Below, one piece after another: positions 19,709 to 26,024 of a stretch of DNA of 64,000 nt. Position 1 is the first letter of the stretch. Every line of letters begins with the position of its first letter. The notes beneath the pieces were generated by a model, which did not search any database, was not told where the DNA came from, and saw nothing but the letters and a program-made list of their open reading frames with translations. This DNA is from Rhizomicrobium sp. (GTDB lineage: Bacteria > Pseudomonadota > Alphaproteobacteria > Micropepsales > Micropepsaceae): assembly GCA_037200385.1 (NCBI GenBank), contig JBBCGL010000001.1:3487418-3551417 (forward strand), written 5' to 3'. The translations under genes were made by a program, and so were the position numbers.

Positions 19709-20905
19709 CTAGCCGCTTTTCACCGCGCCGGGCGGGAACAGGATGTCGCGCACGCCGCCCAGCCGGGCCTGCCGCTCCAGCGCGCGCTCCAGCTTGGCCC
19801 GCCGCGCCGCGCTCAGCGACAGCCGCGGCTCCAGCCACAGCGCCTTGACCGCCAAGCGGTCCGCCGCCCGCTCCGCCTTCATGTCGATGCGCCCTACGAA
19901 CCGCGCGCCCTCCAGCAGCGGGAACACGTAATATCCATATGTCCGCTTCGGGCCGGGCACGAAGATCTCGATCGTATAGTCGAAGCCGAAGATGCGCTCG
20001 GCCCGCGCCCGGTCGCGCAGCACCGGATCGAAGGGCGACAGCACGCGCAGCCGCGAGGTCGGGACCGGCAGGCGCGCCGTCTCCGCCGCGATGTCGGGCC
20101 GCGCCACCGCCTGGAAGCCGCGCTTGCCGGGCGCGCCCTCCAGCGTCACGTCGATCAGCCGCCCGGCGCGCCGCTCGCCTTCGATCCATTTGGCCGCTTC
20201 CGGGATGGAGGCGTGGCCCCAGAAATCCGCGATCATCCGCGCCGTCCCCGCGCCCAGCCGGTCGAGCGCCGCATTGTGCGCCCAGTCCAGCGTCTGCAGC
20301 CGCGTCGGCCTGCCGTCGCGCAGGGATTTGGGGATCGCGCGCTCCGCCAGGTCGTAGACCTTCTCGAAGCCGTTGCGCTCCAGCACCGCGAGCTCGCCGA
20401 TGCGCCAGAGATATTCGAGCGCCGCCTTGGCCGGGCCCCAGCCCCACCACGGCCCGGTCCGTCCGCCCAGATGCGCGAAGTCGCGCGCCAGCGACGGGCC
20501 GTGCGCTTCGACATGGTCGCGCACGGTCTTCAGCACCCGGTCGTCGCCGAAGCGCTCGCGCCACGCCGCGACATTCGCCTTGGACTTCGCGAAGCGGTGA
20601 CGCCAATGCGGATAATGCTCGAGCGGGATCAGCGAGGAATCATGCGTCCAGTGCTCGAACAGCGCCGGCGTCCGGGCCTGCAGCCGCTCGAGATGGCGCG
20701 GCCGGTAGCCGCCATGCCGCGAATGGAGGATGTGGTGATGCGCCCGCTCGATGATCTTGATCGAGTCGAGCTGGACATAGCCGAGCTTGCGGATCAGCGG
20801 CGCGATCGCCGCGGCGCCGCCCGCCTGCCGCTCGCCGCTCAGGCCGTGCCTGGCGAGGATCAGGGCGCGGGCTTGCGCGTTGGAAATATGGAAGGGCGTG
20901 CTCAT
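19709..20905 (-). CDS. ycaQ: AlkX/YcaQ-type DNA glycosylase (winged-helix HTH_42 family)
   Basis: 398 residues from the ATG at 20905 (MSTPFHISNAQARALI); a GTG five codons upstream is possible. The catalytic Q-x-D motif of the YcaQ/AlkX branch is visible as GYVQLDSIKIIERAHH, whereas AlkZ proteins have Q-x-Q. Other family marks: LFEHWTHDSSLIPLEHYPHW, GPWWGWGPAKAALEYLW, LSPFDPVLRDRARAERIFGF and the C-terminal YYVFPLLEGARFVGRID. E. coli YcaQ unhooks interstrand crosslinks by excising alkylated bases. The gene starts 31 bp after the nrdJ stop on the same strand, so it is probably in the nrdJ transcript. Confidence 0.87.
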   Translation of the reverse strand: MSTPFHISNAQARALILARHGLSGERQAGGAAAIAPLIRKLGYVQLDSIKIIERAHHHILHSRHGGYRPRHLERLQARTPALFEHWTHDSSLIPLEHYPHWRHRFAKSKANVAAWRERFGDDRVLKTVRDHVEAHGPSLARDFAHLGGRTGPWWGWGPAKAALEYLWRIGELAVLERNGFEKVYDLAERAIPKSLRDGRPTRLQTLDWAHNAALDRLGAGTARMIADFWGHASIPEAAKWIEGERRAGRLIDVTLEGAPGKRGFQAVARPDIAAETARLPVPTSRLRVLSPFDPVLRDRARAERIFGFDYTIEIFVPGPKRTYGYYVFPLLEGARFVGRIDMKAERAADRLAVKALWLEPRLSLSAARRAKLERALERQARLGGVRDILFPPGAVKSG

Positions 20906-20936
20906 GGCGAAAGCGGCCACGTCATCGCATGAACGT

Positions 20937-23900
20937 CTACCCGCACCGCGAATAGCCGCAGGAGATGCAGGACTCGCAGCCTTCGAGCTTGACCAGGCTG
21001 GGCGAACCGCAGCGCGGACAGAAGCGCGCCGGTGCGCCCTCCGCCGCCACCGCGACGGCGCGGCGCTCGGGCGCGTCCAGCGGCGCGTCGCGAGACGCGA
21101 GGAAGCCCGTGTCGATCATATGCGTCTCGATCACCTCGCCGATCGCCGCCATCAGCGAGGGGACGTAGCGCGTCCCGCTCCACTGCCCGCCGCGCGGATC
21201 GAAGATCGCCTTCAGCTCCTCCACCACGAAGGAGACGTCGCCGCCGCGCCGGAACACCGCGGAGATCATCCGCGTCAGCGCCAGCGCCCAGGCATAGGCC
21301 TCCATGTTCTTGGAGTTGATGAAGACCTCGAAGGGCCGCCGCCGCCCGTCCTTCTCGATGTCGTTGATCGTGATGTAGAAGGCGTGGTCGCTGTCCAGCC
21401 ATTTGATCTTGTAGGTCTGGCCGATCAGCACGTCGGGCCGGTCGAGCGGCCGCGTCATGTAGACGACCCCGCCCGGCGAGACCTCGCGCGGCCGGGCTGC
21501 GGGCGCCGGCTCTCCGCGCGCATCGGCCGCCGGCGTCGTCTCGGCCTGCAGCACCGATCCCGTCACGTCGTTCGGCCGGTAGGTGGTGCAGCCCTTGCAG
21601 CCCATCTCATAGGCCTGCAGATAGACGTCCTTGAACGCCGCGAAGGAGATCTCCACCGGCACGTTGATGGTCTTGGAGATCGAGCTGTCGATGTGGCGCT
21701 GCGCCGCCGCCTGCACCGCGAGATGATCCTCGGGCGCCAGGGTCTGGGCCGTGACGAAATAGTCCGGCAGCGCCGCCTCTTCGCCGAACCGCGCGCGGAA
21801 GGCGCGATAGGCATAGTCCTCGACTGTCTCAGTCGTGCTCGACCCGTCGGGCTGCAGGACCTTGCGGGTATAGGTGTAGGCGAACACCGGCTCGACGCCG
21901 CTCGACACATTGCCGGCGAACAGCGAGATCGTGCCGGTCGGCGCGATGGAGGTGATGAGGCCGTTGCGGATCCCGTGTTTCGCGATCGCGGTCCGGATCT
22001 CCTGCGGCAGGCGCAGGGTGAAGGGCCGCGAGAGGAATTCATGCGCATCGAACAGCGGGAACGGGCCCTTCTCCGCCGCCAGTTCCGCCGAGGCGAGATA
22101 GGCCGCGTCGCTCAGCGCCGACAGCCAGGCATCGATCAGCGCCACGCTTTGCGGCGAGCCGTAGCGCGTGCGGCAGAAGATCAGCGCGTCGGCGAGCCCG
22201 GTGACGCCCAGCCCGATGCGCCGCTTGGCCTTGGCCTCGGCCTGCTGCTGCGGCAAGGGAAAGCGCGACACGTCGATGACGTCGTCGAGCAGCCGCACCG
22301 CGCTGCGCGTCAGCCGCGTCAATTCCGCGATGTCGAGATGCGCGTCCGCCTCGAACGGCCGCTTCACCAGCTTGGCGAGATTGATCGAGCCCAGCAGGCA
22401 CGCGCCGTAAGGCGGCAGCGGCTGCTCGCCGCAATTGTGCGCCCACAATCCGTTGGCGTCGAAAGCGTTGAGGCCGGGGATCGCCGCATCGAACACCTCC
22501 GCCTCGCCCGCCGGGCGCACCGATTCGACCGTGGCGCAGAACTGCTCGCGGTTGAGGGAGCGCCGGTAATTCTTCAGGGCCAGCGTGAGCCGCAACGTCT
22601 TGTCCGTATCGGAAAACCCGACGCGCTCGGCGAACACCGGCAGATTGTCACCGGAAACTACCAACTCGTGCTGCGCCGCGACGGCATAGGCCTTCGAACC
22701 GCCCTTGCCGTCCGGCAGAAGCCGCGTTCCCGTTGCGCGCCGGTCGCGATAGAGCGTGCTCGCGATGCCCAGCCGCAGCAGTATGCGCTGCACCGCTTCG
22801 AGCCGTGGCAGGTCGCTCTGGCTGAGTCTTACGCTCACGCCCTTGTCCTGCGCGACCTGGACGCTGCCATCGGCATCGAAGAAGCCGCGCAGGAACGCCG
22901 CCTGGAAGGCGCTCGAGCGCCGCTCGATCGCCGGCGAAATCGCCTGGTCGCCCGGCGTCATGCCATGTGCCAGCGCCAGCGCCGCGAGCGCGCCGGTCGC
23001 CATCCGGAATTCGCCCCGCCCCGGCACCTCCATCCAGCCGGCAAAGTCGCTGCGATGTGGCAGGCGCGACGCGGCATCGAAGGCCGCGTCCATCACGCCG
23101 CGCACACCGTCCGCCGGCGCCTCGCCATTGGCGGCCTGGGCGCGTGGCCAGACCGACAGCACCGCCTTGTCGTCCTTCAACGTTCCGTCGCCGACCAGGA
23201 GGCCGAGCAGATAGCCCTCGTCGCCGTCGCGTTGCGCAACGGCCGCGTCGCCCCAGCCGGCGATGGCGCGGTGATCGTGCAGCAGGACCTCGTCGCCCGG
23301 CCGCAGCGTGCCCGCTTCCGTCCAGGTCCAGTCGCTGCGCCAGTGGGTCCGCCGCGTCACCTTGCGCACGCGGTGATCGGCGGTCAGCCGCAGGGCGTGG
23401 CCCGCGCGCGTCCTGAGTTCGACGACCGGCTTCACGCCGCTGGAAAAGAATCCGCGCCCGTCGCTCGGCCAGCCGCGGCCCTCCGCCAGCGCCGTGAACG
23501 GCGTGCCGATCAATTCGTGCACCTGGCGCGGCCCGCCCGCCGTCGCGATCCAGGTCTCGGCCGTCACGCAGGGATTCGTCGCGCTGATCGTCTCGCAATA
23601 GCCGAGATTGTTCTCCTGGTTGATGCGGTCGATGAAGATCACGCCGGGCTCGGCGGTCTCGTAGGTGGCGCGCATGATGCGGTCCCACAGGTCGCGCGCC
23701 TTCACCGTGCGATGGACGACGCCGCCGAAGGTCAGCGCCCAGTCGCCGTCCGCCTTCACCGCGTCCATGAACGCGTCGCTCACCAGCACGGAGAGGTTGA
23801 AGTTCGACAGCCTTCCGCGTTCGCGCTTGGCGTCGATGAAGGTCTCGATGTCGGGATGGTCGATGGCGAGCGTCGCCATCATCGCGCCGCGCCGGCTGCC

Positions 23901-24365
23901 CGCGCTCATGATGGTGCGGCACATCGCGTCCCACACATCCATGAAGGAAACGGGGCCCGAGGCGTCGGCCGCCACGCCATGTACCGCCGCGCCCCTGGGC
24001 CGCAGCGTCGAGAAATCATAGCCGATGCCGCCGCCCTGCTGCAGCGTCAGCGCCGCTTCGCGGAGGGCGGAGAAGATGCCGTCCATCGAATCGTCGATGG
24101 TCCCCATCACGAAGCAGTTGAACAGGGTCACGCTGCGCGCCGTGCCCGCGCCGGCCAGGATGCGTCCGGCGGGGAGGAAACGGTGTCCGGCCAGCGCCTG
24201 GGCGAAATCCAGCGCCACGGTGCCGCGTTTCTCCGGCGCTTCGGCCTGGGCGGCGGCCAGCGCCACGCGCGCCCAGGTATCGGCCACCTCGCCGTCCACG
24301 GGCGTGCCGTCCGGCTGTTTCAGCCGGTATTTCATGTCCCAGATCTGGCGGGAAATATCGCTCAT
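20937..24365 (-). CDS. nrdJ: Adenosylcobalamin-dependent ribonucleoside-diphosphate reductase (class II) with intein
   Basis: Reduces ribonucleotides to deoxyribonucleotides using a coenzyme B12 radical. From the ATG at 24365 the precursor is 1142 residues; after removal of a 379-residue intein (C266-N644) the enzyme is ~763. Core motifs: [32 protein letters not shown], the finger-loop [18 protein letters not shown] split by the intein, [13 protein letters not shown], and a C-terminal cysteine cluster ([18 protein letters not shown]) for re-reduction. The cysteine directly after the intein should be the thiyl-radical residue. A GTG seven codons earlier is an alternative start. A LexA-type box lies 69 bp upstream and the AlkX gene follows. 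Confidence 0.96.
22434..23570 (-). mobile_element. Full-length LAGLIDADG intein inside nrdJ
   Basis: An in-frame insertion of 379 codons starting [13 protein letters not shown] and ending [10 protein letters not shown], followed by extein Cys. Splicing residues are all present: N-terminal Cys, block B TADHRV (T-x-x-H), penultimate His, terminal Asn, +1 Cys. Two dodecapeptide motifs of a homing endonuclease are intact: LLGLLVGDG (23184-23210) and LRGFFDADG (22866-22892), each with its acidic residue. The flanking extein SATNP / [10 protein letters not shown] is contiguous in intein-free RNRs. Splicing competence is expected but not shown. Confidence 0.94.
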
Positions 24366-24530: not shown

Positions 24531-26024
24531 GTGAACACGCTCTACTACGGCGACAATCTCGACGTCCTGCGGCGCCATGTGGCGGCGGACTCGGTCGACC
24601 TGATCTATCTCGACCCGCCCTTCCAGAGCGGCCGCGACTACAACATCCTGTTCGAGGAACAGGACGGCACCAAGGCCGCGGCGCAGATCCAGGCTTTCGA
24701 GGATTCCTGGGAGTGGGACCTGCGCGCCGCGGCCGCTTATGATGATGTGGTGCGCGCCGGCGGCGCCGTCGCCAACGCGCTGGAGGCATTCCGGCAATTG
24801 CTCGGCGGCACGCCGATGCTCGCCTATCTGTCGATGATGGCGCCGCGCCTGGTCGAGCTCAGGCGGGTGCTGCGGCCGACCGGCTCGATCTACCTGCATT
24901 GCGACGTCACGGCCAGCGCGCATCTGCGGCTGCTGATGGACGCGGTGTTCGGGCCGCGCAATTTCCGCAACGAGATCGTCTGGTACTACTACAACAAGAT
25001 GCATGACAGCCGGAAGCGCCTGTTCCCGCGCGCCACCGACACGCTGCTGTTCTATGTCAAGGACGTCCACGCGCCCTTCACCTATCGCCAACTCAAGGAG
25101 CAGCGCGAAAAGCCCGTCCGCCAGCTCGCGCGCAAGAAGCTGGGCGGCCGCATGGTCAACGCCAGGGACGAAGACGGCCATGTGATCTACCGCCTGAAGG
25201 AAGACCGCACGATCGACAATGTCTGGCGCATCCCCTGCATCCAGCCGGCCGACCGCACGCAGCGCATGGGCTATCCGACGCAAAAGCCCGAAGCCCTGCT
25301 GGCCCGCGTCGTCGAGGCGAGCAGCAATGCGGGCGACACGGTCCTCGATCCGTTCTGCGGCTGCGGCACCGCCATCGCGGTGGCGCAGCAGATGAACCGG
25401 CACTGGATCGGCATCGACGTCACCCATCTGGCGGTGGGCCTGATCAAGCATCGCCTGCTGCACGCCTTCGGGCTGCACGCGAAGAAGGACTACGCCGTCA
25501 TCGGCGAGCCGACCACGATCGACGGCGCCAAGCAGCTCGCCGAGGACGACCGGCACCAGTTCGAGCATTGGGCGCTCGGCCTCGTCGGCGCGCGCGCGTC
25601 CGCCAAGGGCAAGGGAGCGGATCGCGGGATCGACGGCCAGCTCTCCTTCCAGGAGGGCGGTACGGGCAGCGAACACAAGCGTGTCTTCATCTCCGTCAAG
25701 TCCGGCGGCGTGAAGGCCGGCGACATCCGCGACTTGCGCGGCGTGGTGGAGCGCGAGAACGCGGCGATGGGCTGGCTCATCACGCTGGAGGAGCCGTCCC
25801 GGCCCATGCGCGCCGAAGCGGCCGATGCGGGCTTCTACGTTTCGCCCTGGGGCCAGCACGGCCGTCTCCAGATCCTGACGGCCGAGGCGCTGCTGGACGG
25901 TGCGACCTTCAGCTGTCCGCCGATCCGTCCCAGCGGCACGACGTTCAAGCTCCCGCGCCGTGCAACCCGCGAAGCCGATCAGGGTGCGCTGTCGCTCGAA
26001 GGACCGGCGGCGGACGAGGAATAG
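24531..26024 (+). CDS. DNA methyltransferase fused to an Mrr-like restriction nuclease domain
   Basis: 497 residues, GTG start with AAGG six bases before. Residues ~1-310 are an amino-methyltransferase with motif IV first (LIYLDPPFQSGRDYN) and the SAM-binding motif later (VLDPFCGCGTAIAVA), the beta-type order. Residues ~345-440 look like a PD-(D/E)xK nuclease of the Mrr kind: FEHWALGLVGARA, GADRGIDG, VFISVKSGGVKAGDIRDLRG and GWLITLEEPSRPM. One polypeptide could therefore both modify and cut DNA. No specificity subunit or separate nuclease is nearby. The base and target site are unknown. Confidence 0.82.
   Translation: MNTLYYGDNLDVLRRHVAADSVDLIYLDPPFQSGRDYNILFEEQDGTKAAAQIQAFEDSWEWDLRAAAAYDDVVRAGGAVANALEAFRQLLGGTPMLAYLSMMAPRLVELRRVLRPTGSIYLHCDVTASAHLRLLMDAVFGPRNFRNEIVWYYYNKMHDSRKRLFPRATDTLLFYVKDVHAPFTYRQLKEQREKPVRQLARKKLGGRMVNARDEDGHVIYRLKEDRTIDNVWRIPCIQPADRTQRMGYPTQKPEALLARVVEASSNAGDTVLDPFCGCGTAIAVAQQMNRHWIGIDVTHLAVGLIKHRLLHAFGLHAKKDYAVIGEPTTIDGAKQLAEDDRHQFEHWALGLVGARASAKGKGADRGIDGQLSFQEGGTGSEHKRVFISVKSGGVKAGDIRDLRGVVERENAAMGWLITLEEPSRPMRAEAADAGFYVSPWGQHGRLQILTAEALLDGATFSCPPIRPSGTTFKLPRRATREADQGALSLEGPAADEE

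Follow-up and report, generated by a model that had tools for sequence, protein, structure and literature searches.

Does a ribonucleotide reductase (RNR) gene whose catalytic finger loop is interrupted by a long in-frame insert encode a regulated enzyme, a dead one or the host of a mobile element? This question is raised by nrdJ, the gene for a class II (B12-dependent) RNR, in a stretch of 64,000 nucleotides (the window) from a Rhizomicrobium sp. genome assembled as one contig of 5.0 Mb. The NrdJ precursor is encoded by a single uninterrupted minus-strand frame that runs from the ATG at 24365, a start chosen to match that of the intein-free allele in a sister species (genome G028), to the stop at 20937, and it holds an insert of 379 codons (22434-23570, minus strand; C1 to N379) between an N-extein ending in ...SATNP and a C-extein beginning with CGE. 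Very probably, the insert belongs to the ordinary class 1 inteins, carries a LAGLIDADG homing endonuclease that is intact and is placed at the finger loop of NrdJ. By sequence, this reading draws on the anatomy of the insert, its site, the existence of empty alleles, alleles that keep the splicing residues next to a broken endonuclease and the spread of the intein across NrdJ subfamilies, and from these we infer both splicing of the insert and DNA cleavage by its endonuclease.

The exteins (N-extein, 265 residues including the start Met, 23571-24365; C-extein, 498 residues plus stop, 20937-22433; both minus strand, as are all coordinates of the gene below) are delimited by the open reading frame and by TIGR02504 and PF02867. 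The NrdJ model TIGR02504 scores 556 bits (cut-off 400) and the RNR barrel PF02867 spans the insert as one stretch (E 1.4e-122), which together with the finger-loop NPCxE identify the host as a class II RNR. Within the insert, LAGLIDADG_3 (PF14528) matches with E 6e-25, and the predicted structure resembles PI-PfuI over residues 1-379, with a Hint splicing fold and an I-DmoI fold over residues 111-333. All residues of a class 1 intein are present: the N-terminal nucleophile Cys1 (23568-23570), T63 and H66 in the block B motif TADH (23373-23384), H378-N379 for C-terminal cleavage (22434-22439) and the +1 Cys (22431-22433). Two LAGLIDADG motifs follow one another at residues 119-129 (23184-23216) and, as LRGFFDADG, at residues 227-235 (22866-22892), with D128 and D234 as the acids presumed, by analogy with other LAGLIDADG enzymes, to bind metal and act in catalysis. 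Judged from these matches, a chance origin of the motifs and domains is excluded.

NP-C and HN-C motifs served to delimit the 36 intein rows that we compared (35 of them distinct) as well as the genus exteins, so these letters cannot vary in either set; every intein locus that was full-length and unbroken did match the motifs, and C1, HN and C+1 recur in 15/15 further loci of this intein that were cut by BLAST, free of motif selection. T63 and H66, likewise unaffected by such selection, are invariant across the 36 rows. An initial interpretation of this DNA from its letters (the sequence-only reading) had proposed a 379-codon insert with these exact borders after SATNP, a full set of splicing residues, two intact LAGLIDADG motifs and products of ~41 kDa (intein) and ~83 kDa (spliced NrdJ); each of these stands, with masses computed from sequence of 40.8 kDa for the intein, 82.8 kDa for spliced NrdJ (763 aa) and 123.6 kDa for the precursor. 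It gave no strand for the gene, which is minus.

The sequence-only reading had also equated the +1 nucleophile with the radical cysteine of the enzyme. When the empty allele of G028 (locus L030) is aligned with Thermotoga maritima NrdJ (1xje/1xjk), its NPCGE corresponds to N320-P321-C322-G323-E324, positions that were counted off the printed PDB alignment, and C333, eleven residues past C322, is matched as well. The thiyl radical resides on the finger-loop cysteine in every RNR that has been characterised biochemically (PMC9531940). Because C+1 of the window aligns with Cys322, the +1 splicing nucleophile and the predicted radical cysteine of NrdJ are one and the same residue, as had been claimed, and since the insert breaks the finger loop it is a sound inference that the precursor would be inactive before splicing. 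After translation, Cys1 would form a thioester with Pro-1, the +1 Cys would attack this thioester to give a branched intermediate, and N379 would cyclise with the assistance of H378; the freed exteins would then be joined by a normal NP-CGE peptide bond that restores the finger loop and the radical cysteine. At the DNA level, the endonuclease would cleave empty nrdJ at the conserved NP/CGE codons and repair would copy the intein gene in. The idea that the insertion lies in the most conserved part of NrdJ held only partly: the 10-residue window around it has rank 188 among 752, and the 24-base window has rank 259 among 2262.

NrdJ was read in 50 of 69 genomes of the genus (the search with the precursor covered 60 genus genomes), and the intein is present in 11 of them and exactly absent at NP/CGE in the other 39, an empty allele typically giving one match that ends at residue 265 of the precursor and another that begins at residue 644. 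Locus L041, with a run of N at the site, was set aside from this count. Family-wide, the intein occurs in 11/96 genomes, every one in the genus of the window, while some match was obtained in 17/385 genomes of a class sample (two weak and one partial among them) and in 20/398 genomes of a phylum sample (two at 29% identity), with three genomes common to both samples. On an extein tree built from 72 of 75 rows by a quick method with no bootstrap, intein presence changes at least ten times, and four carriers pair with an empty sister (G029/G028, G034/G080, G010/G026 and G007/G019). Rows L018 (frameshifted contig), L041, L073 (start missing), L074 and L075 (both weak hits) were dropped before counting; the trees leave out the L063 intein (G210), which duplicates that of L007, and the extein tree also leaves out L015 and L036. 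Given the exact empty alleles and the four carriers with an empty sister, the insert is a mobile intein rather than the permanent domain whose presence in close relatives would have counted against the sequence-only reading.

The same insertion point, which had been proposed as something to look for in NrdJ homologues, was found in the genus, in the wider phylum and, judged by motifs, in viral contigs. Identity to the window is only 47-48% for the NrdJ exteins of gammaproteobacterial hosts (L009, L012-L016) and 57-61% for their inteins, whereas in alphaproteobacterial hosts outside the genus the exteins are 66-70% and the inteins 55-62% identical. The inteins are thus as close in gammaproteobacteria as in these alphaproteobacteria, though the exteins differ, and the comparison therefore indicates that the intein has moved between NrdJ subfamilies. 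Divergence at four-fold sites in Thioalkalivibrio is lower for the intein than for the extein (0.05 versus 0.17 for L014/L016, and 0.12 versus 0.30); the pair G000/G029 shows 0.44 for the intein and 0.24 for the extein, an excess that may reflect rate or codon-use bias instead of age and that we do not take as proof. A 45% identical intein also occupies the same site on a contig binned, perhaps wrongly, as Geoglobus (Archaea; L017), in a NrdJ 38.5% identical to that of the window.

The acids of the two LAGLIDADG motifs are kept in most rows: D128 is kept in 34/36 rows (lost in G020 and G023 only) and an acid, D or E, at position 234 in 33/36 (lost only in the congeners G005, G020 and G024), G023 thus having lost the acid of motif 1 and kept that of motif 2. 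The four inteins with a damaged motif (L026 in G024, L027 in G020, L029 in G005 and L023 in G023) retain all splicing residues and lie at the same site. A review of the homing cycle holds that a dead endonuclease is tolerated and a dead splicing domain is not (PMC7765530), and broken endonucleases next to kept splicing residues fit that cycle. G005, G020 and G024 group together in both the intein and the extein tree, and no empty allele falls inside their extein clade. Separate acquisition of these three inteins, considered on account of their 44-47% identity, was dropped because a split with 100/99 support in the intein tree keeps the 11 inteins of the genus together. In the broken trio, the ratio of the proportions of nonsynonymous and synonymous differences (pN/pS) is 0.40-0.55 in the endonuclease region compared with ~0.22 in the splicing region, and in G000/G029 the two regions are alike (0.26 and 0.27). 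Purifying selection on the endonuclease region is an indirect sign that the enzyme may cleave the empty allele.

Several points weigh against this account. Two intein models, Intein_splicing of Pfam (E 1.8e-5, under its curated cut-off) and TIGR01445, match under their cut-offs. Pro at -1 may be unfavourable for splicing, in line with intein-fusion design advice to keep prolines away from the junction (PMC8189919), so the rate of splicing is not predictable. Dividing pN/pS of the endonuclease region by that of the splicing region gives 1.8-2.4 for the broken trio and about 1.0-1.7 for eight pairs with an intact position 234 (1.5 for G007/G010 and 1.7 for L066/L070), several pairs being near saturation; relaxed constraint is thus a tendency in broken endonucleases and, with no sharp border between these ranges, was rejected as their clean mark. 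Finally, when the 11 genus carriers are put to an approximately unbiased (AU) test, the extein topology is not rejected by the intein data (p 0.24), and the reverse test, of the intein topology on extein data, gives p 0.0455 (LG+G4, 11 taxa, two exteins partial). Tree incongruence that would prove recent homing within this genus was accordingly not found; as the two trees are compatible on intein data, descent with repeated loss explains the genus as well as recent homing does, and losses may account for the patchiness. The comparison of intein with extein phylogeny suggested in the sequence-only reading did not bear out recent homing inside the genus.

The sequence-only reading went on to suggest that splicing could act as a switch on the supply of deoxynucleoside triphosphates (dNTPs). 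In such a switch, release of the radical cysteine would be held back by a redox or other signal. The location invites this view, as the insert lies between catalytic finger-loop residues and the +1 Cys is common to splicing and the active site; moreover, some inteins splice in response to redox state (PMC4031507) and the Aquifex R2 intein increases the iron loading of its enzyme (PMC8772380). The source genome, however, encodes a second, uninterrupted long class II NrdJ (NPCSE), so that dNTP supply need not wait for splicing, and a long NrdJ match to PF02867 exists in 11/11 genus carriers (some frames cut by contig ends). The 39 alleles without the intein likewise speak against a switch. The only cysteines of the intein are C1 and C345, and position 345 is Cys in just 3/36 rows, which leaves no conserved disulfide partner inside the intein, while extein Cys-9 is found in 47/49 genus exteins and therefore also in the majority of empty alleles. 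The window holds neither a riboswitch nor any other Rfam element at gathering score, and no pattern like the NrdR-box consensus was found. By one account, physiologically relevant conditional splicing was not known as of 2014 (PMC4031507). With no sign in the sequence that would support a conditionally splicing intein, we consider the switch improbable and this claim of the sequence-only reading not upheld. An association between carriage of the intein and absence of NrdB was rejected, PF00268 scoring over its cut-off in 3/11 carriers and 30/58 others (Fisher p 0.19).

A broader version, that the radical-cysteine codon is a homing hot spot in bacterial and phage RNRs of classes Ia, Ib and II, that the shared thiol would make activation thiol-sensitive and that some lineages keep a redox-gated intein, strikes us as equally improbable. 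Still less probable is a dead or non-splicing allele, in which NrdJ would be dispensable and the insert would simply block the gene: a backup NrdJ does exist and Pro-1 is not a favoured junction residue, but the exteins of carriers are under purifying selection (pN/pS 0.24 for G000/G029), inteins with a ruined endonuclease still retain their splicing residues and the reading frame is free of stops and frameshifts. A permanent inserted domain, for which nothing more than the in-frame insertion speaks, is ruled out by the exact empty alleles of 39/50 congeners and is further contradicted by the intein motifs, the predicted fold and the sporadic spread.

An intein at the finger-loop cysteine is not peculiar to NrdJ. 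By junction motifs, on which all our same-site calls in other RNRs are judged, the intein of the class Ib gene BnrdE of Bacillus phage SPbeta (NC_001884, annotated 'encodes putative intein'; SNL|CVTGE...TGN|CSE) stands before the corresponding cysteine like that of the window. It is also of LAGLIDADG type and homologous (a two-sequence comparison gives 25% identity, 84/342, at E 1e-24), but its extein is of class Ib, the residue at -1 is Leu, the penultimate residue is Gly instead of His and the host is a phage. The same holds for the class Ia NrdA intein of Proteus phage vB_PMC-PL1 (PP502408; NL|CVAPE...GN|CVE), which precedes the corresponding cysteine, yet belongs to a class Ia enzyme, has a penultimate Gly and shows its 33% identity only across query residues 226-379. 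An intein also stands at the corresponding place in a gene flanked by nrdI and nrdF on a Miltoncostaea plasmid. Among 16 viral contigs, 13 show the intein start before the same cysteine; 11 match the whole intein, with NP|C at the start in all 11 and HN|C (10) or SN|C (one) at the end, three of them with the same flanks. Of the partial matches, L126 and L127 show NP|C at the start and L124, L125 and L128 HN|C at the end. The viral host genes look like RNRs by these flanking motifs alone. The insertion point is thus, by its motifs, already known from the same cysteine in class Ib, class Ia and viral RNR inteins. Native Pro at -1 is found in 17/17 N-junctions of the phylum loci L129-L145 and in 13/13 readable N-junctions of the viral contigs. 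These contigs (L113-L128), two of them longer than 290 kb, are possible vehicles for the intein family. A different intein, 29% identical and ending in Gln (TGQ|CGEQ), sits exactly at NP|CGE of NrdJ in L144 and L145 (G490 and G820); its C-terminus resembles the SPbeta type by eye.

The Pyrococcus RIR1 inteins (NCBIfam PRK08332; PI-PfuI, 1dq3) are archaeal, and PRK08332 is longer, at 1684 positions. The Mth RIR1 intein, an RNR intein like that of the window but archaeal, has Pro before it and CGE after it as well. The homing-cycle review notes the use of Mth RIR1 in commercial vectors (PMC7765530). A further reported system is the NrdJa intein of Azotobacter chroococcum NCIMB 8003 (aa 321-690), described in 2015 together with its potential presence in Rhodanobacter and a few gamma- and betaproteobacteria (PMC4465626). 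Like the intein of the window, it has LAGLIDADG_3, ~370 residues and a class II RNR host, and it is missing from the A. vinelandii ortholog; it differs in its gammaproteobacterial host, and its site is likely the same. An RNR intein was reported in Methylococcus in 2004 (PMC517821), and in Aquifex R2 an intein lies between catalytic residues of an RNR (PMC8772380). In a literature search that covered few subscription papers and the text of a minority of the papers listed, none was seen to name NP|CGE as an insertion site in NrdJ, though this does not prove that no such paper exists, and none joined intein, NrdJ and alphaproteobacteria.

Biologically, the element is one more RNR intein of known type. 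Its value lies in a single genus that holds full alleles with an intact endonuclease, full alleles with a ruined one and empty alleles, some of them in sister species, such that the homing cycle is testable in one background, as is what an enzyme pays for having its active site depend on splicing. The class II inteins examined here all follow a native proline and, if they splice well, the family could supply inteins that tolerate Pro. That inteins occupy the radical-cysteine site in class I and class II enzymes and in phages shows how they settle where imprecise loss would destroy function.

Directly downstream of nrdJ lies a gene for an AlkZ-like DNA glycosylase (19709-20920, minus strand), and a similar frame follows nrdJ in the sister species G028, as judged by eye. 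Divergent from nrdJ, 24531-26024 (plus strand) encodes what may be a one-piece restriction-modification protein, in which an N6/N4 DNA methylase is joined to an Mrr-like/NA-iREase1 nuclease domain. The source genome (G000) also has an orphan gene for the RNR small subunit NrdB (C1:4229388-4230179; L005 and L077; PF00268, E 5e-66): PF02867 detects no large subunit of class I beside it or anywhere else in that genome, whereas congeners such as G010 and G053 have a large-subunit match adjoining NrdB.
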